A DNA stretch of 37,642 nt from Bacteroidaceae bacterium (GTDB lineage Bacteria; Bacteroidota; Bacteroidia; Bacteroidales; Bacteroidaceae), in assembly GCA_017933995.1 (NCBI GenBank), contig JAGBKI010000018.1, forward strand, positions 1-37,642. Direction: 5' to 3'. This document shows positions 3,883 through 14,341 of the stretch, in pieces. A program made the position numbers and the translations under genes. Below the pieces are notes generated by a model, which was not told where the DNA came from, ran no database searches, and saw only the letters and a program-made list of their open reading frames with translations. Position 1 is the stretch's first letter; each line of letters starts with the position of its first letter.

Positions 3883-6800
3883 TTAGCGCACCAGCACACG
3901 GTAGGTCTTGGCGCGCTGGCCAGCACGTTCAACAGTGACGAGGCAAACGCCGGGGCGCAGACGGAGGTCGGCATTGCTACCAGCGCCACTGCGGGCGATG
4001 AGACGTCCGTCGGCAGTGTAAGCACTGACACGCGTGATGTCGTTGCTGGGGCTGAATACACTGATACGTTCGTCGCTCACGGTAATTTCAAGACCGTCAG
4101 CCTGTGGCGCGGCGGCGATGTCCGTAGGCTCGGTATTAACCAACACGAAGCGACCGATGCAGGTACCCTTGAGGCCCGTGAAGGCTGGCAGTGCGTCGAG
4201 CATATAGGTCAGACCCGTATTGCGATCGAGCAGGCGGTAACCCTGTAGGTCGAAGCCGCCGAGAGCGTCGAAGGAAAGTTGCACGGTATCGCTGCGGCTG
4301 ATGACGCCCAGCACGACTTCGCGCTCATCGCGCAGGGCTCGGATGTCGCAGGCGCGGTCGCCCATTAGTGTGAAGACGGCAAGGGCGGGGGTGGCCTCTT
4401 CGTCGACAATGGTTTCGGCCTGCGGCACGACGTCGTCGCCCACAAGCAAGGCGGCGGCTTCGGTGCCAGCGGCGCGGGCTTTGATGCGCATGAGGGGGCG
4501 AGTCGGGGCAGCATCGTCTTCGGCGGCGGTCATGCGGAACATGTCATCGTTGAAGTTCAGCGTGAGCGAGTTCGTGGCACTATTAAGCGTGACGAAGAAC
4601 GCCTGCATCGGCGCAATGAAGTCGGCACCGTCGGCAGTAGCAAGCAGTTCGCCGTCCACGCTGACCAGCGCTGTGGTGGATGCGCCGTTGTGAACCTGCA
4701 CGCTGGCCACGCTGGGATTGGCTTCAATGAAGTCCTTCACGGATATGTGGCTCATGAAGGGATTGCCCACGAGATAGGTCGTCGTGGCAAGCGTGGACGA
4801 GAGCGTCAGGGTCAGCGCAGCAGCTTTGTTGAACACCGAACGGTCGTTTTCGGTCTCGTAGGTGTATTGGTGGCTGCGCAGCGCCTCGTCCTCATAGACG
4901 AAGCGGTGAGCACCGTCGCGCGTCAGCCCCGTCTCATTCCATTTGGACTTTTCCTGCGTGCCTTCGTAGTAATAATAATATGTGTCGTAGGCTTTGGGCA
5001 GGCGCACGGTAAGCGTCCCCTCGCGTTCTTCGGCATCGGCATAGAGCGAGAAGCCCTCACCAAGACCATAGAGTTTCTTCAGGACATTGAAGCGGCGCGA
5101 CCAATTGGCGACAGTGGCAGCAGCTGGAGAGTTTTCGCCGTTAGCCAAGCGGAAGTCGGTGGCCGTTTCCCACACGCGCTGGTAGAAGCGCGGAGCAAAG
5201 CGGTTTTCGGGATAGGCAGCAACCATGTTTACAGCATCGCCCTCAGAAGCGAGCGTCATGAAGTAGCCGCCAGAGGTGATGGTGTCTTGGTCGGCGGCGG
5301 CCACAAAGAAGTCGCCCGTGTAGACGCTCTTCAGCGGGGCAGAGAGCATGTACCAGCGTCCAGCTTGGGGAGCAAAGTCCACCCATGCGCGCTCGTAGTT
5401 GAGACGGTATACTTTCTCAACAGCAGCACCGCTCTCAAAGTGGATACCACGACAACCGTACTCGTCAGCATCCTCTTCGCCCTGCTCATTGAGTACCTTG
5501 TCGAGCGAAGGATATACGCGGGCATCGGAGGGGATTATGACGTTGGTGCAGAGGTAGGGCGAGCCTTCCGTCCAGTTGTCCCAGTCGTTCCAATCCTGGC
5601 TCAGCGTATTCGCGCGCCAAGTGGTCTGTAGCGGGTGTACCATATACTCGGTCGTGCCAATGAGTTGCTGCTCGCCGTTGTAGACATAGGCCGTGAATCG
5701 ACCGGCCTTTTTCGTCACGATGTCGTAGGTGATGAGGCGGCTGTCGTCGTGCGAGCTTTCAAGTTGCTGCATCTCTACGCCGTGGTCGGGGAAAGAAACG
5801 TAGTAACGCTGGCCCGCGCTGTTCACCTTGCACTGGAAAGCGATGGTGCCGCCCACACAGACGGACGGTGTCTTGAACTCACTGGCCACATCATCGGGAC
5901 ACGATTGTGTGTCACGGTTGTCGGCAATACCGTCGGCATCGATGTCGTTGCGTAGCAGGATACCGTAGATTTTAAGTGTCTTGTTCACCTCAAGCCCACC
6001 GCCCGCTACAATCTGGATCTCGTCGAAGTCGCTCTTCGGCTGGAGGTAGAGCACGGTCTGCCCACTACCCGATATAACGTTGGCACCGAGCACGCCCCAG
6101 TTCGTGGAACTCTCGCCCGTGGCCTTGCCGTTGTGGTACGTCTCGACCTTCATCACTTCGCCCACGTTGGCGTTGAGGGCTATGATGTCGTTATCAACCA
6201 CTACGCCAACCTGGTGGCGGAAGTCCACGGTGCGTCCCAGTTTCACGATGATGCGCTGCGTGCCGGCGTTGGCCGTCTTCTGCAACAAAGCGTAGGACTG
6301 AAGCAGCGGGTCTATGTCCACGATATTTGACAAGTTGGTAGTAACGCAGCCCACAGCGGCCACCTCGACCTGCGTGCCCATATTGACTATGGCACCGTAG
6401 TTCTTGTAGGTCACAATGTCGGCTCCATCTATTATCTGATTGTTGGCAGGGTCGCTCGGATCGTCCATAAAGGCGTAGTAGAACTTAATGTCATTCACGT
6501 CGAGGTTGAGCGTGCCGATTTTCCACAGTTGTATCTCCTTTACGTCGAGCGTACCGTCTTTGGAGGCTTTGGGAACAGTGATACAGATGCGAATCTTGTT
6601 GCTCTTGTCTGTGCCGTCCTCGCTGTTAGCATTGCTGCCGATGAGGTTCACGCCGAGTACGCCCGCATTCTCGACGATGGAGGAATAAATGCGGTTGCCT
6701 TCGGCGTCGAAGCAGCGTATTTGGAAAGCATCGAGCAGGGAAAGACCAATGTTGGTCTGCTGCATCTCAACCACGAAACCTATGCGCACAGCGTCAAGGG

Positions 6801-8637
6801 CATCGGCCTTACTGCCTTCGTAGAGGTAGCCGTCCTTCTTCTTGATGCCCATTATGATACCATTGGCTCCGGCCAGCTGCAAGCCGCCAGTGTAAGTGGC
6901 GTAGTTTGTGAGGTCGCCGTCGAGAATGTTCTCAGCGTTCTCGATGTTGGAGATGGAAAGGATGTTGGCGCTGGTCTGACCGTGCAGGTCAAACGCAAAG
7001 TCATATTCGTCGCCTGTCAGAGCCGTTTCCTTGGTCAGCGCGGTAAAATCGGCCTCTTGGCCTCGGTTGATGGTCACATAGTCCACGCAGGGGTTGTCGC
7101 CCTCGTCGTCAAGGCTGGTAACTTTGAACACGTAAGGCCCCGTGTCGTTCATCCCACTCACGAATCCCTCATCGTCCACAGTGGGCTTGCCTTCTTCGGA
7201 GGGATAGGACGGCCAGCGGTAGGCCTCCCACTTTACGTTGATGGCGGGATTGCTCTTGAGTTTGTGCGTGGTTTGATTGTCGCAGATGTTGGTGTCCATC
7301 ATGGGGTTGAGCATACACTCGTGCTCCACAACGGGTTTGGGACGCACAAACCCATAGTACACACCGTAGCCGTCGCCGAGGTTGAGCACGCCGAGGGCGG
7401 AGTAGAACGTGATTTCGGCACCGCTGAAGTCCTCCCCGGCCACGATATAACTGGTTTGGTCGCCGCCAGAGGCGACGGAGAGGCTCAGCACGTCGGCACT
7501 GATGGTAGTCGTCTGCACCTTCTCGCCCTTACGGTTGTAGAGCGCGATATCTATCCACGTGCCCACATTGAGTACGTCGGCCACCTGCACGAAACCGAAC
7601 TTGAAGCCTACCTGGTCGCCCGCCTTGAAGAGTTCGGACGTGGCGTAGTCGTTCTTCACATTGACACGCACACGCCCCTTGAAGGCCACACTGGCCAACT
7701 GCACGGCGCTGACGAGGGTACACTTCTCGTCAAGCATCTCGTTCTCGGCGGTGCCGATGACATCACGCTCTGCGCCCGAGGTCATCGGAATGGGGATGCC
7801 GCCCACCAACGGTGAGGGCATAAAGGCTTCGCACGAAACGGACATATCTTCGTGTCCGCTCTTCTCGCAATAATCGTGGACACCCTTCACGGTGAGATGC
7901 ACGTCGTGCGCATCGCCCACAAAGGCATACTTGATCATCACGAGTTTGCCAACCTCGGCATTGACCGCGCCGCCCTGCACAAGGGCTACTTCGTCGAACT
8001 TCTGGCTGCTCACGGCGGTGAGGTTGGCACACGTCTGCTGGCTGCCGGGGATGCCGATGAGCGTCAGCTTCACGCCGCTGCCACTGTTGGCCTCACGCAC
8101 GGTCTGGTCGTCAACCAGTTTGCCGTCGCAGTAGAACCAGATGTGGTAGGTCTTAATGAGGTCGAGCGAAAGCACGCTGCTGCCACTGCCCGCCACGATA
8201 CAGAAACCAGCGGTGGTACCAGCGGCGTAGTAGTCGCGCATGTCGCGCACACTGACTGTGGGGCTGGTGACAACGGTCGCGCTGACCACCGAGGGGAACG
8301 TGGCGTAGTCGTCGATGTCCTCGTTCGTGAGGTTCTCCAGCCCGCTGGTGCCCGTACCCACGGCCACCACGTTGATGACACGGTTCACAGAACAGTGGCG
8401 GCCCACCAGTGCGCGGCGCGCGGAGAGATAGGGTGTCTTGGTTTCGGTGCGGTCGGACGACACTCTGGAGTCTGTCTCCTGCCAAGTCACGGCATCGGCC
8501 TTGTTGGCAGCCATGGCCTCGCTTTGGTCGGGTTCGTCGTCTGCTTGGGCGAAGCCTGCAATGGGCGCAGCGGCAAGCAGGGCGCACAACGCCATACGGG
8601 TTACGCGCGCGCGTATATATAATACGGAGTGTTTCAT
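3883..8637 (-). CDS. Large exported surface protein with type IX-like C-terminal sorting domain
   Basis: A 1584-aa protein. I chose the ATG at 8637, which gives a signal peptide with a basic n-region, a hydrophobic A-L-C-A-L-L-A-A-A-P-I-A-G core and an F-A-Q cleavage end; the open frame extends 17 codons further without a plausible leader. The N-terminal two thirds holds about four diverged modules of roughly 150 residues, each with a D-Y-A-T or N-Y-A-T opening, an L-G-V / L-G-A middle and a D-E-I / D-V turn before Y-Y-G-F or similar. Near residue 900 a D-x-D-x-D-G-x-x-D-N stretch resembles a calcium-binding thrombospondin-3 turn. Near residue 1012 W-N-D-W-D-N-W is typical of Bacteroidota surface proteins. 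The last 75 residues fit a type IX sorting domain (Y-T-A-D-G-R-L-I, P-G-V-C-L-V-T-V). Likely secreted or cell-surface; no enzyme domain is visible. Confidence 0.8.
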   Translation of the reverse strand: MKHSVLYIRARVTRMALCALLAAAPIAGFAQADDEPDQSEAMAANKADAVTWQETDSRVSSDRTETKTPYLSARRALVGRHCSVNRVINVVAVGTGTSGLENLTNEDIDDYATFPSVVSATVVTSPTVSVRDMRDYYAAGTTAGFCIVAGSGSSVLSLDLIKTYHIWFYCDGKLVDDQTVREANSGSGVKLTLIGIPGSQQTCANLTAVSSQKFDEVALVQGGAVNAEVGKLVMIKYAFVGDAHDVHLTVKGVHDYCEKSGHEDMSVSCEAFMPSPLVGGIPIPMTSGAERDVIGTAENEMLDEKCTLVSAVQLASVAFKGRVRVNVKNDYATSELFKAGDQVGFKFGFVQVADVLNVGTWIDIALYNRKGEKVQTTTISADVLSLSVASGGDQTSYIVAGEDFSGAEITFYSALGVLNLGDGYGVYYGFVRPKPVVEHECMLNPMMDTNICDNQTTHKLKSNPAINVKWEAYRWPSYPSEEGKPTVDDEGFVSGMNDTGPYVFKVTSLDDEGDNPCVDYVTINRGQEADFTALTKETALTGDEYDFAFDLHGQTSANILSISNIENAENILDGDLTNYATYTGGLQLAGANGIIMGIKKKDGYLYEGSKADALDAVRIGFVVEMQQTNIGLSLLDAFQIRCFDAEGNRIYSSIVENAGVLGVNLIGSNANSEDGTDKSNKIRICITVPKASKDGTLDVKEIQLWKIGTLNLDVNDIKFYYAFMDDPSDPANNQIIDGADIVTYKNYGAIVNMGTQVEVAAVGCVTTNLSNIVDIDPLLQSYALLQKTANAGTQRIIVKLGRTVDFRHQVGVVVDNDIIALNANVGEVMKVETYHNGKATGESSTNWGVLGANVISGSGQTVLYLQPKSDFDEIQIVAGGGLEVNKTLKIYGILLRNDIDADGIADNRDTQSCPDDVASEFKTPSVCVGGTIAFQCKVNSAGQRYYVSFPDHGVEMQQLESSHDDSRLITYDIVTKKAGRFTAYVYNGEQQLIGTTEYMVHPLQTTWRANTLSQDWNDWDNWTEGSPYLCTNVIIPSDARVYPSLDKVLNEQGEEDADEYGCRGIHFESGAAVEKVYRLNYERAWVDFAPQAGRWYMLSAPLKSVYTGDFFVAAADQDTITSGGYFMTLASEGDAVNMVAAYPENRFAPRFYQRVWETATDFRLANGENSPAAATVANWSRRFNVLKKLYGLGEGFSLYADAEEREGTLTVRLPKAYDTYYYYYEGTQEKSKWNETGLTRDGAHRFVYEDEALRSHQYTYETENDRSVFNKAAALTLTLSSTLATTTYLVGNPFMSHISVKDFIEANPSVASVQVHNGASTTALVSVDGELLATADGADFIAPMQAFFVTLNSATNSLTLNFNDDMFRMTAAEDDAAPTRPLMRIKARAAGTEAAALLVGDDVVPQAETIVDEEATPALAVFTLMGDRACDIRALRDEREVVLGVISRSDTVQLSFDALGGFDLQGYRLLDRNTGLTYMLDALPAFTGLKGTCIGRFVLVNTEPTDIAAAPQADGLEITVSDERISVFSPSNDITRVSAYTADGRLIARSGAGSNADLRLRPGVCLVTVERAGQRAKTYRVLVR
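8602..8627 (-). repeat. Alternating CG/TA 26-bp element, copy 1 (inside signal-peptide codons)
   Basis: Ten nucleotides of CG alternation (8604-8613) are joined to an alternating TA tract and flanked by TACGG. It encodes L-Y-I-R-A-R-V in the n-region of the large surface protein. A near-identical element lies at 16471-16496 in non-coding DNA. Confidence 0.6.
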
Positions 8638-8837: not shown

Positions 8838-11302
8838 TTATTTGATGTAAACTTTCTTGCCGCCGACAATGTAGACGCCGCTGCGCGGTGCGCCGCTCAC
8901 GGCGCGGCCTTGCAAGTCGTAAACGGGAGTGGCGGCATCGGTTGCAATGGGATTGGCTTCGAGGCGTTCCATACCCGTAATCTCTTGCTCATCTTCTATG
9001 ACGAAATAGAAGCCGAACGACTTTACGCTCTGCACGCTCTCGGCGTCGAGGTAAGCGCGGTTGGGCAGCAGGTAGTCGCCACTGGGATGTAGCAGGCGCG
9101 CGTAGCCCTTGCTGTTTTTGGTCAGCACCCAATAGTTGCGCCAATTAGCTCCGAAGTAGGGCGCAGTCTCTTGGCTCATGTACGAATTGTCCTCGCTCTC
9201 AGTGATGCCTTTCCAGACGTTGAAACCAAAGGCGTCGTCCGTAACGCTGATGTGGCCGCTTCCGGCAGGCCAGCAGCGCAACTTGTATTCAGTGCAGTTG
9301 TCGCTGCGGATGATGACAGCGTTTCCAGCAGGCACTTCCTTAGCCTCAAGCATCTCCAGCGACACTTCTTTGGAAACCCATCCGCCTGCAAAAAGCTTCA
9401 CGGTGTTCGCGCCGTTGTACTCGTCTGTGCCGTCTTCCGTGCCGTTGGCCACATCGAAGGGATAGTAGAACGTGCTCCACATATAGCCGTCGCTGCCCTC
9501 CTGCCCTTCGCGTGTGTCGGTAAGGAGCTTCACGGTGATAGTGGGCGCGGGCGAGATGATCCAGGCGTTGTTGGTGTTCGCCGTAGGGCTGGAACTGTTG
9601 CAGAGCGAGGCGCGGTGGGCCGCGCTGGGCGAAAGGACGCTCAGGTAGCCGTTGCTGGCGTCAAGGCCGCTCGCGTCTGTACCATAATACACACAAAGGC
9701 TGTACTGACCGTCAATGAGACGGCTCACGAAATAGCGTCCTGCCTTATCTACATCGGCTGTCAGGGGAATATAGCCGCGCGAGTTGCTTCGCGGGTTGCC
9801 GATGTACTTACCCGTGTTGGCGTTGCGGATAAGGTAGACGTTGTGTTCGGGCGAAAGCAGGCCCGTGGCGTTCTCACCGCTTTCTGCGCCATGACCCACG
9901 AGGATGAACTGCCACAGCGCCGAAGCCTGGCTCTCGTCGGGACGGAAGGCGGCGGCGTTGGCGCACGATGCGTCCGTGCCACCGTAAACAGCATCAAGCG
10001 TCAGGGCGTGGTGACGGTGGTCCACATCAGTGAGCCAGCCGTAAGCACCGGGCGTATCCTCGTTGTAGTTTTCGTAGTCTCGGGCTACGTTGATGAGATG
10101 GAAGAACTGGTCCTCTACGATGTCGGCGTGGCTCGTGATACTGGTAGGAAACGCCTCAATACCGTGCTCCTCGCAGTAGTCATCCACGGACATCAGCCCC
10201 CAGTCGGACGAGAAGCCCTGCGACTGCCGTGAAGTCACTGTGCCATCCGGGGTTTCAAGAGAAAAGTACACGTCCACACTTGAAGAATTTCGTGTGGATG
10301 CGTACTTCAATGAGATAAAACGCCGGTCGCCATCGCTTGAAGCAATAATGGCAGGGTTATAAGCGTTTTTCGTGTTGTCTAATGAGAAATTTGCCCCAGC
10401 ATTGCTTGCAGTCCCACTGGTCCACGTGTTCTCCACACGGATGGCAATGTCATAGCCCTTGTTGGTTAGCGTCTTCACGCCGCCCGTGGTGGTGAGCGTC
10501 CACACGCTGAACTGTGTAGGTGTAAACGTACCCTTAAGTGAAGAACCCTCAGCATTGAGGTAGAGGTTGTGGCGGCGATTCAGCAGGACGTAGTCGCCAT
10601 CCGGGTACGAGCCCACCACCTTGGCAGCCTTCGCCGTGGCGATGGCTTCAACAAGCTTCTTGAAGTCTGTGCCCTTGCTGCCATCCAGCCCTGCCCACAC
10701 ACTTTCGCTCACACCGTTGGCTTTAGCCTCGTCTATGAGATCGTCAAAGGAAATAAAAGTCCAAATGTAGTTGTCCTTGTCCTCCTGTGTGAGCGTCTGC
10801 AAATGGATGTAGTTGTAACCGCCCGAACGGACGTGGGCCCAGTACTGCGAACTGTTATTGTTGTTGTAGACGGAAAGGCCGGTGGCATTAAGGGAGTTGC
10901 GTTTCAACCCCCATTCAATACTTACCGAAGCCGTGCCTGTGGAAATAAAATTGCCGATGTCGTCAAGATAGGCACTTGACGAGGCGAGCCAAACGCCCTC
11001 GCCAGCTACCTTGTTGCCTATCTTGTAGGCAGAACTTCCCTCATCAAGAAACCAGAGGAAACCGTTCGCGTCATAATCGCCGTCCCAAGCGATATGGCCG
11101 TCTTTCAATGTGGCAATTGACCAAATTCGCTGGCTGTTGTCCTTATACATATACTCGCCCGTGGCGGCACCACGTATAAGGTAATAGACGCGGCTGCCGG
11201 ATGTGGAAGTTTTAGGGTATTCAGCCCGCTGCGCGAAGCCCGAAATTACCCCCCCCAATTTAGCGCTGGGAGAACAAAAAGCAAAAATAGTAATTTTCGC
11301 AT
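8838..11302 (-). CDS. Exported repeat-containing surface protein, out of frame at a G8 tract (phase-variable or pseudogene)
   Basis: The signal peptide M-R-K-L-L-F-L-L-F-V-L-P-A-L starts at ATG 11302 and runs into eight G (11249-11256), after which its frame stops at once (W-G-G-stop). The 800-residue body is open in another frame. With nine G (or six) the two join as a signal peptide ending G-F-A-Q, giving 821 aa. The body has recurring Y-L-I-R-x-x-x-T-G-x-Y-x motifs (for example near 9820 and 11160), suggestive of beta-trefoil-like or other carbohydrate-binding modules. The C-terminus has V-Y-D-L-Q-G-R-A-V and G-V-Y-I-V-G-G-K-K-V, a very common Bacteroidales sorting-type tail. The open frame extends to 11504 without any leader-like sequence. 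A good promoter lies upstream. It could be a phase-OFF allele, a true frameshift, or a base-calling error in the tract. Confidence 0.78.
11249..11256 (-). repeat. G8 homopolymer at the signal peptide/mature junction
   Basis: Eight C on the plus strand, so eight G in the coding sense, at codons 16-18 of the exported protein. The count decides whether signal peptide and body share a frame: 6 or 9 joins them, 7 or 8 does not. Confidence 0.85.
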
Positions 11303-11351: not shown

Positions 11352-11382
11352 CAAAAGTACGCCTTTTGTGCCGCCGCGCAAA
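11352..11382 (-). promoter_or_regulatory. Promoter of the surface-protein unit
   Basis: On the minus strand: TTTG (11379-11382), a 19-nt spacer, then TACTTTTG (11352-11359). It lies 49 nt before the ATG at 11302. A perfect-spacing promoter supports 11302 as the real gene start and argues that the gene is still transcribed. Confidence 0.75.
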
Positions 11383-11605
11383 GTTTTTGGTTCGCAATTT
11401 TGACGAAATGCGACCTTTGTTGCACGAAATGTCGCTTTGCGCGCGCCAAAATGCAAGCGCGCCAAGCAAAACGGCGCATTTTGCTGTTTCCGTGGGGCTT
11501 TCATTTTCCTTTTATGCCTATTGCGCCTTCTCTACCCACACTCCCGTTTTCCGCGCCAGCGTCACAAACTCCCCCGCTTTCCCCACCTTTTCCGTCGGCA
11601 AGCCT

Positions 11606-11830: not shown

Positions 11831-11974
11831 TATACCACGTTTACAAGAAAAGCGAACCATGCACCCATGTGATACATGCAAACAACTTCCCTCTTACCTT
11901 CTAATCCAAACATCTCAAAAGACTTCAGCAAACACCCTAATAACGAATCAAACATACCCAGACCCAATAACAAC

Positions 11975-14341
11975 ATGATGAAAATGCGACTCTACTTGAC
12001 AATCCTTGCTTTAGCCTTATGCTTGCAAGCTACCGCCCAACCCACGCGCTCCAAAGGTGCTCCCCGAGAGAGCGCCGCCACGCAGCAGCGCGCCGCAGCC
12101 CCCGTGAAGATCACCAAGGGGCTGTTCGGCGTGGGCCAGCAGGGCACGAACTGGTACTTTGAAATCCCCGACACGCTGCTGGGCCGCGAGATGCTCGTCA
12201 CCGTGCGCTACACCAGCACGCCCGCCGGATACGGCAAGTACGGCGGCGAGCAGGTGAACCAGCAGACGATGTACTGGGAGCGCACCGCCCAGGGCGACCT
12301 GCGGCTGCGCTCGCGCCTGCTCATCACCCGCGCCGGCGAGTACGAGGAGATAGGCCGCGCAGTTGAGGCCAACAGCAGCGACCCCGTGGTGGGCGTGTTC
12401 AAAAAGGAGAGCGGCGCCTCGCGCGGCACGACGCGCATCAACGTCGGCCAGTTCTTCCTCTCCGACAACGGCGCGCTGACGCTCTCGAAATACGAGAAGC
12501 AGAACCTCGGCGTGACGGCTATGCAGTCCAACCTCTCCGAGATTGAGAGCATCAAGACCTTCCCGCTCAACACCGAGGTGCGTATGCTCACCACCTGGGC
12601 CGCGCCGCAGGGCAAGACGCCCTCGGCAGCACGCACTGGCAAGGTCAGCGTGGGGCTGAACGTCAGCTTCGTGCTGCTGCCCAAACTCGAAGCGCGCCGC
12701 CGCCTGTTCGACCCCCGCGTGGGCTACTTCACCGACCAGTACACCGAGTTCAGCGACTACCAGCAGCACGTCGAGCCGCGCCGCTTCATCACGCGCTGGC
12801 TCCTCGAACCCAAGGACAGCGCCGACCGCGCCGCCATGATGCGCGGCGAACTCGTCGAGCCGCGCCAGCCCATCGTCTACTACATCGACCCCGCCACGCC
12901 CAAACGCTGGCGCAAGTACCTCATCCAGGGCGTCGAGGACTGGCAAGTGGCCTTCGAGGCCGCAGGCTTCAAGAACGCCATCCAGGCGCGCGAGTGGCCC
13001 GACAGTATCAAGTCTATGAGTATGGAGGACGCGCGCTACAGCGTCATCCGCTACCTCGCCTCGCCCATTGAGAACGCCTACGGCCCCAACGTGCACGACC
13101 CGCGCACCGGCCAGATACTCGAAAGCCACATCTGCTGGTACCACAACGTGATGCAGCTGCTCCACGACTGGTATATGGTGCAGGCCGCCACGCTCGACGA
13201 AGCCGCGCGCCAGGTGCGTTTCGACGACGAACTGATGGGCGAACTCATCCGCTTCGTCTCCAGCCACGAGGTGGGCCACACGCTCGGGCTGCGCCACAAC
13301 TTCGGCAGCAGCAGCACCGTGCCCGTCGACAGCCTGCGCGACAAAGCCTGGGTCGAGGCACACGGCCACACGCCCAGCATTATGGACTACGCCCGCTTCA
13401 ACTATGTGGCGCAGCCCGGCGACGGCATCAGCCGCAAGGGAATCTTCCCGCGCATCGGCGACTACGACATCTGGGCCATCCGCTGGGGCTACACCCCCAT
13501 GTGGGACGCCTTCGACGAGGTGAGCGACCACCGCGAACTGGAGGCCAACCTGATGGACAAGTACTACAAAGGCAACCGCCGCCTGTGGTTCGGCGACGGC
13601 GAGACGCGCCGCACCGACCCCCGCTGCCAGACCGAAGACCTGGGCGACGACCCCGTCAAGGCTGGCAACTACGGCATTGCCAACCTCAAGTGGGAACTCC
13701 CGCAACTGCCCCAGTGGAGCTACGACCTCGGCGACGTGAACAACACCTACCTCGCCAACAACTACAGCACAGTGCGCTCGCAACTGCGCCGCTACCTCAA
13801 CCACGCCGTGCGCTACATCGGCGGCACCTACACCGACTTCAAGGCCGTCACCGAGCAAGGCCCCGTCTACCGCCCCACCCCCGCCGCAATGCAGAAGCGC
13901 TGCCTCGCCTTCCTCGACGAGCAGGTGCTGCACGAACCGACGTGGCTCACAGACGTGGCCTACATCGACCGCCTCACCGGCGACCCCACCGCCGTCACGC
14001 TCGGCGTGGGACGCCCCATCGTGACCGGGCTGGTCAGCGCGGCGCAGCTCGCCTACCTCAACACCGAGTACCCCGCCGAGGAGTTCCTGCCCGACCTTGC
14101 CGCCCTTCTGTTCAGCGAACTGGAAAGCGGCGCGGAGGTGACACCCTACCGCCGAGGGTTGCAAAGCGAGTTCGTCAAGGGGCTGACCGCCTACTTCAAG
14201 GAAGCCGACGCCGATGCCAAGGCACGTCCCGCCGTCCTCCAGACACTGCGCGACCTCCAGAAGCGTCTCGCCGCCCACCCCGCCGACGCCCACTTCTCCG
14301 CCCTTGAGGACGCCATCGCCCGCGCCCTCAAAGTGGACTGA
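11975..14341 (+). CDS. Exported zinc-dependent metalloprotease (DUF5117/DUF5118/met-zincin type)
   Basis: A 788-aa protein. The ATG at 11975 gives a clean signal peptide (M-M-K-M-R-L-Y-L-T-I-L-A-L-A-L-C) ending A-T-A-Q; the frame opens 33 codons earlier but that stretch is Asn/Pro-rich and not leader-like. The zinc site is H-E-V-G-H-T-L-G-L-R-H at residues 431-441, the extended HExxHxxGxxH of metzincins, followed by an S-I-M-D-Y Met-turn about 33 residues on. The region before it matches the Bacteroidota DUF5117/DUF5118 layout (F-E-I-P-D-T-L-L-G-R near residue 65). It should hydrolyse peptides in the periplasm or at the outer surface; the substrate is unknown. It stands alone, divergent from the surface-protein unit. 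Confidence 0.88.
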   Translation: MMKMRLYLTILALALCLQATAQPTRSKGAPRESAATQQRAAAPVKITKGLFGVGQQGTNWYFEIPDTLLGREMLVTVRYTSTPAGYGKYGGEQVNQQTMYWERTAQGDLRLRSRLLITRAGEYEEIGRAVEANSSDPVVGVFKKESGASRGTTRINVGQFFLSDNGALTLSKYEKQNLGVTAMQSNLSEIESIKTFPLNTEVRMLTTWAAPQGKTPSAARTGKVSVGLNVSFVLLPKLEARRRLFDPRVGYFTDQYTEFSDYQQHVEPRRFITRWLLEPKDSADRAAMMRGELVEPRQPIVYYIDPATPKRWRKYLIQGVEDWQVAFEAAGFKNAIQAREWPDSIKSMSMEDARYSVIRYLASPIENAYGPNVHDPRTGQILESHICWYHNVMQLLHDWYMVQAATLDEAARQVRFDDELMGELIRFVSSHEVGHTLGLRHNFGSSSTVPVDSLRDKAWVEAHGHTPSIMDYARFNYVAQPGDGISRKGIFPRIGDYDIWAIRWGYTPMWDAFDEVSDHRELEANLMDKYYKGNRRLWFGDGETRRTDPRCQTEDLGDDPVKAGNYGIANLKWELPQLPQWSYDLGDVNNTYLANNYSTVRSQLRRYLNHAVRYIGGTYTDFKAVTEQGPVYRPTPAAMQKRCLAFLDEQVLHEPTWLTDVAYIDRLTGDPTAVTLGVGRPIVTGLVSAAQLAYLNTEYPAEEFLPDLAALLFSELESGAEVTPYRRGLQSEFVKGLTAYFKEADADAKARPAVLQTLRDLQKRLAAHPADAHFSALEDAIARALKVD

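Follow-up and report, generated by a model that had tools for sequence, protein, structure and literature searches.

The 37,642-nt stretch of DNA analysed here (the window; the whole of contig C8 of a Bacteroidaceae draft genome) carries on its minus strand a gene whose signal peptide and intact 800-residue body lie in different reading frames, with a tract of eight G between them and a promoter in front. In some related species, the tract recurs with differing length and phase, and further G or C tracts lie upstream of the gene in others. We consider that this is probably (a probability of about 0.7) a homopolymer contingency locus caught in the OFF state, which would control the export of a beta-trefoil surface protein by a presumably reversible change of tract length.

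Anatomy of the split gene

The features of the site, all on the minus strand, are as follows.

11352..11382, minus: Bacteroides-type promoter by sequence match (-33 TTTG at 11382-11379, 19-nt spacer, -7 TACTTTTG at 11359-11352)
11246..11302, minus: signal-peptide frame of 18 codons, MRKLLFLLFVLPALNWGG (ATG 11302-11300; TAA 11248-11246, directly 3' of the tract)
11249..11256, minus: candidate slip site from sequence, eight G (C on the plus strand); 7, 11 and 8 G at the equivalent position in three other species
8838..11245, minus: body, 800 residues counted from 11240, in another frame than the signal peptide, no internal stop
10185..10625, minus: beta-trefoil (ricin-B-lectin-like) domain, body residues 206-352
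8841..9479, minus: C-terminal module, ending VYDLQGRAVSGAPRSGVYIVGGKKVYIK, with 25 other matching places in the own genome
8657..8818, minus: 53-codon open frame between body and partner gene, from sequence
3883..8637, minus: partner gene, starting MKHSVLYIRARVTRMALCALLAAAPIAGFA, 1,584 residues from ATG 8637

Signal peptides were judged from the sequence and a hydrophobicity rule. The tract sits just 5' of the likely cleavage region (...FAQRA), and the body reads from GFAQRAEYPK... to ...VYIVGGKKVYIK, being open to 8841 with its stop at 8840-8838. An earlier note on this DNA had described the signal peptide and body as intact, in different frames and separated by eight G, and the frame reading bears this out; the lengths that it gave (about 800 residues for the body and about 820 for the joined protein) are arithmetically right, and its remark that no decay is visible in the body agrees with 800 codons free of internal stops. 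Promoters of Bacteroides have the consensus -33 TTTG and -7 TAnnTTTG. The consensus-spaced promoter claimed for the signal-peptide start was found as TTTG-19-TACTTTTG, ending 49 nt before ATG 11302; matches to TTTG-N18..21-TAnnTTTG occur twice on the plus strand of the window and once on the minus strand, at this very place.

The body frame is also open in the 5' direction as far as an ATG at 11504 (888 codons), a point absent from the earlier note. If the body started there, or at a TTG of the same frame close to where the signal peptide begins, the eight-G state would be the working one. This TTG lies two bases before the signal-peptide ATG, and its reading is weakly signal-peptide-like. However, ATG 11504 is located upstream of the promoter, and in two relatives described below the body frame offers little to start from: in G012 it meets a stop shortly before the tract, with no ATG, GTG or TTG between, and in G051 its sole candidate is a TTG that precedes the tract by one codon. 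Since G012 has no such start and G051 just that TTG, the alternative start is not conserved, and we regard this explanation as scarcely credible.

The G tract in the signal peptides of homologues

Among 120 related genomes searched, the gene is present in eight, the own genome included. When 301 genomes of the family were scanned, 21 of them from the window's genus, the body was found in four, all of that genus, and hence in 1 of 30 genera. The conserved partner-gene start, used as query against the species genomes, yielded seven loci, six in genomes already known and one in a new genome, RUG839 (RUG being a cattle-rumen catalogue, as described in the cited part of PMC9769736); a scan of the species-genome contigs with the body protein as query returned no relative. 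The comparison thus covers nine species including the window, with one assembly per species. Seven of these are rumen Prevotellaceae/Bacteroidaceae assemblies, filed under Prevotellaceae, Bacteroidaceae, Prevotella or Alloprevotella, and four of the seven carry a rumen in their titles (goat, sheep and, twice, roe deer). The homologue bodies are 35-44% identical to that of the window, some being nearer to one another, and no internal stop was found in any of the fetched bodies, that of G051 having been seen as two pieces of 152 and 303 residues on two contigs. G019 and G051 pair in the tree with a support of 89/89.

The signal peptide contains a G tract in four of the nine species: 8 G in the window, 7 G in G012, 11 G in G051 and 8 G in G054. 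The first three are out of frame and G054 is in frame. The remaining five (G019, G004, RUG839, G002 and G028) read through and lack a signal-peptide run of at least 7 G. At this place G051 is out of frame with its 11 G, whereas its partner in the tree, G019, has an open frame and a G-rich stretch that is interrupted. Signal peptides comparable to that of the window open the in-frame homologues. As expected of a contingency locus, the tract is a slip-prone repeat placed to set the reading frame or the promoter spacing, and it is kept with varied length among relatives in a gene that is otherwise intact; when both the signal-peptide and the upstream position described below are counted, 8 of the 9 species have a tract. 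The homologues thereby support the reading as a phase switch in the OFF state that the earlier note had put forward, in which reversible switching is the part that we infer. That note had proposed homologues as the check, with loss of the tract among them and further decay of the present copy as the contrary outcome: the tract does recur (4/9), and although five of the nine species lack a signal-peptide tract, which counts against the switch, decay of the window copy was not seen.

The window and G012 share one direction of frame offset from signal peptide to body; in G051 the direction is reversed, and G054 needs no shift. This bears on programmed slippage, in which RNA polymerase or the ribosome would slip at a set rate and yield a low, constant amount of protein from the eight-G allele. 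The site does resemble a recoding site in that the G run is followed at once by TAA in three of the four species, where TAA acts as a stop in two and is read in another frame in G054. At a recoding site the shift direction would be kept among homologues; here one direction is required in two species, the opposite in a third and none in the fourth, and five species do without a tract. Such variation in direction fits a change in tract length and argues against programmed frameshifting, which we judge very improbable.

A fixed frameshift, in which one recent slip in the tract inactivated the gene and left a young pseudogene, has more in its favour. A fresh frameshift would look just like a single out-of-frame copy with tract-free homologues in five of nine species, and one genome gives no date. 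On the other hand, of the four species with a tract, three are out of frame at this same point, and their bodies are all free of internal stops. Reversibility accounts better for lesions that recur at one site with no sign of decay, and we think a fixed frameshift unlikely. An assembly or base-calling error, with the gene truly in frame, carries a rather slim chance. The genome is a draft (2.48 Mb, 66 contigs, 83.7% complete), and indel errors typically fall in homopolymers; yet the frame is broken at this tract in three genomes, in two directions, and four other genes whose signal peptide ends in 8-9 G (see below) were assembled in frame. Since G012 and G051 belong to a single project (RGIG), they may share an error of method. 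Both a frameshift mutation and a base-calling error had been raised as caveats in the earlier note, and both are retained here at the strengths just given, beside the preferred reading of a reversible switch.

Tracts upstream of the gene and the chance expectation

Beyond what the earlier note had reported, six of the nine species have a G or C run of at least 8 in the interval from -450 to the start:

G051: G8 at -148
G004: C8 at -144
RUG839: G11 at -194
G002: C8 at -192
G028: G8 at -320
G054: C8 at -145

The distance from the end of the run to a TAnnTTTG box is 22 nt in RUG839, 14 nt in G054 and 0 nt in G028, where the tract abuts the box and is 320 nt away from the start; the upstream runs of G051, G004 and G002 showed no clear promoter geometry. 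Two of the nine species have tracts at both positions, and G019 has a run neither in the signal peptide nor upstream.

The controls were 43 signal-peptide-like open frames from sequences not selected for tracts (28 from the own genome and 15 from six relatives), a few of which look spurious. A run of at least 7 G or C between -450 and +110 occurs in 8/9 members of the family and in 3/43 controls (Fisher p 1.9e-6, kinship ignored), and a G run of at least 7 in the signal peptide in 4/9 and 0/43, respectively (Fisher p 4.7e-4, kinship likewise ignored). Six partner genes are among the controls and have no run. In the 33 sequences not selected for tracts (500,368 bases, both strands), G runs of at least 7 number 12, and 7 of these belong to the present gene family, three in the signal peptide and four upstream of the start (two of the latter being C runs on the coding strand), which exceeds what chance would give. 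The own genome contains the pattern G8TAA 17 times against a mean of about 4 for 58 genomes; since it is tract-rich, drawing controls from it is not lenient.

The protein and its partner gene

The domain at body residues 206-352 qualifies as a beta-trefoil fold. The Pfam match of the window protein to PF14200 (Ricin-B-type lectin) is marginal, at 26.2 bits against a cut-off of 25.6 with no single stretch passing alone. Among the homologues, G019 is just above the cut-off and RUG839 is a clear match; G028 gave no match to PF14200. No solved structure was found by sequence search. The body is best read as a lectin-like surface protein with putative carbohydrate binding. Many of the 25 other matches to the C-terminal module in the own genome span only the last 35-90 residues.

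A homologue of the partner gene lies 3' of the body gene in 9/9 species, with an open frame of 1,563-1,625 codons in the eight species fetched whole and a partial one in G004. No family in Pfam or NCBIfam matched the partner gene. Its start is well conserved, with 66-83% identity to six relatives over 300-360 residues, against only 35-44% for the body. At 11876-14341 of the window there is a divergent, probably exported met-zincin (DUF5118/DUF5117/DUF4953).

Poly-G tracts elsewhere in the genus and family

Fifty-eight genomes of the genus were scanned for a start followed by G8, and 12 regions were picked by eye among the matches listed. In five of the 12, the tract ends a signal peptide: four are in frame (G038 and G047 with 9 G, G011 and G036 with 8 G), and the fifth, in G021, has 8 G and is out of frame before a DUF3575 body. 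The other seven comprise two in-frame genes without a signal peptide and five regions without a convincing gene. All four in-frame exported proteins share the C-terminal module of the window protein. That the tract is a general trait of proteins with this module was ruled out, as a signal-peptide run of at least 6 G occurs in 0/23 of the parsed own-genome genes (23 parsed of 25 fetched, L157 being cut by a contig end; L175 and L177, which were unparsed, were run-free as controls).

Two individual genes were noted in passing. The DUF3575 gene of G021 (L117:1015-2279) has the same anatomy as the window, eight G splitting a signal-peptide-like start from the body. Its homologues were found in 2 of 58 genomes, itself included; the other one is partial and contains no G or C run of at least 6. 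In G007, a glycosyltransferase gene (L122:824-2080; Pfam Glyco_transf_4 and Glycos_transf_1) has eight G in frame near its start, at codons 12-15, and is a switch candidate without a signal peptide.

For a systematic count, 60 loci were fetched from two start-plus-G8 scans. Forty tracts had an open ATG(K/R) 18-62 nt upstream, and in 17 of the 40 a frame of at least 100 codons follows. A hydrophobic start was seen in 6/17 of these versus 3/23 of the others at the preset mark of 2.0, and in 6/17 versus 0/23 at a mark of 3.0, which was set after the scores were known. The six loci with a long frame and a hydrophobic start are three members of the present family and three others. The remaining matches listed by the two scans were read by eye only.

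G8TAA was counted 240 times, and its reversed form 77 times, in the 58 genomes of the genus. At 45 distinct tracts of at least 8 G before TAA, which come from loci fetched for such patterns, TAnnTTTG lies within 60 nt downstream on the G strand in 10 cases and on the other side in 2. The same test at 834 control positions gave 1.3% and 2.4%; as these positions are mostly genic, the comparison between strands is the stronger control. In 201 genomes of the family, G8 was found immediately next to TAnnTTTG 18 times, in 10 of 30 genera, versus 2 for the reversed pattern. G tracts at promoters thus look like a wider habit of the bacterial family, and switches that act through the length of a promoter spacer are possible across it. 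Among 108 distinct tracts of at least 8 G in the fetched loci, four abut a -7 box directly.

The own genome also contains a repeated intergenic element, in which an inverted repeat TTTTGCTAT...ATAGCAAA is followed by 8-9 G and TAAAATCG. Copies were found at L018, L019, L027, L030, L032, L033 and L035 (contigs C1, C4, C24, C26, C36 twice, and C45), with a variant at L037 (C50) that has other letters after the tract. Five copies have a -7-like box 61 nt further on, and several lie near contig ends. The signal-peptide tract was considered as a copy of this hairpin-plus-G element, and this was rejected, the hairpin being absent before it.

Discussion

As a switch, the locus would work as follows. 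DNA polymerase would slip on the G tract and change its length in single cells. In one of the three phases, signal peptide and body would form a single frame, and the beta-trefoil surface protein would be exported; in the other two, translation would end at the tract or shortly after it. The assembled genome would represent the OFF phase. Slippage would be reversible in the living population, with loss of the protein when OFF, possibly a polar effect on the partner gene, and presumably a role in the variation of a carbohydrate-binding surface protein. One point against such a switch is that tracts of 7-8 G are short for a slippage mechanism; in meningococcus and gonococcus the modal tract length is 9, in the cited part of PMC5953494.

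The closest known arrangements are in Neisseria. The Opa genes carry CTCTT repeats in the region coding for the leader peptide, so that, as here, a slip-prone repeat inside the signal-peptide coding region sets the frame and with it the production of an exported surface protein (PMC3960869, in the portion cited). In Opa, however, the repeat is a pentamer and switching has been measured, whereas the present case is a single G tract in a genus of Bacteroidales, read from sequence. The pilC gene likewise encodes an exported protein and has a tract of 9-20 G inside its reading frame (PMC5953494, same part). It differs in its longer tract and in an unrelated protein. The pilC tract lies in the signal-peptide region.

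A G or C tract beside or between the promoter boxes sets the transcription of Neisseria opc and porA (PMC3960869, in the portion cited), and promoter homopolymers do so for Treponema tprL and tp0126 (PMC7864442, in the portion cited). The upstream tracts of G054, G028 and RUG839 might act in the same way, to judge from their geometry, although the promoter type differs and the present family has its tract upstream, in the signal peptide or, in two species, in both places. In the same order as the window, Bacteroides fragilis has switches that are inverted by an invertase, and the Bacteroides switches named in the cited part of a recent review are inversions (PMC11868660); the on/off logic of surface variation is the same, with inversion there and slippage here. 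No slippage-based phase variation in Bacteroidetes or Bacteroidales, Prevotella and Bacteroides included, appears in the titles and abstract openings of the open-access papers that searches for such cases returned.

It is conceivable, though somewhat doubtful, that poly-G slippage is a general switch for secreted surface proteins in this bacterial family, and that within one gene family the switch has shifted its place between promoter and signal peptide with switchability kept, selection preserving the ability rather than the place.

The phase variation known from Bacteroidales is mainly by DNA inversion, and the present locus looks like a slip-type on/off switch of the kind better known from pathogens, here in a bacterium with relatives in the rumen. 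If this is true, a group of gut bacteria would also use slip-based switches on secreted proteins, gene callers would list such genes as pseudogenes or unexported proteins, and the rumen metagenomes already available would allow the switch states to be read directly. Among relatives the tract has apparently moved between promoter and signal peptide, which would make the family a good case for the origin and upkeep of contingency loci.
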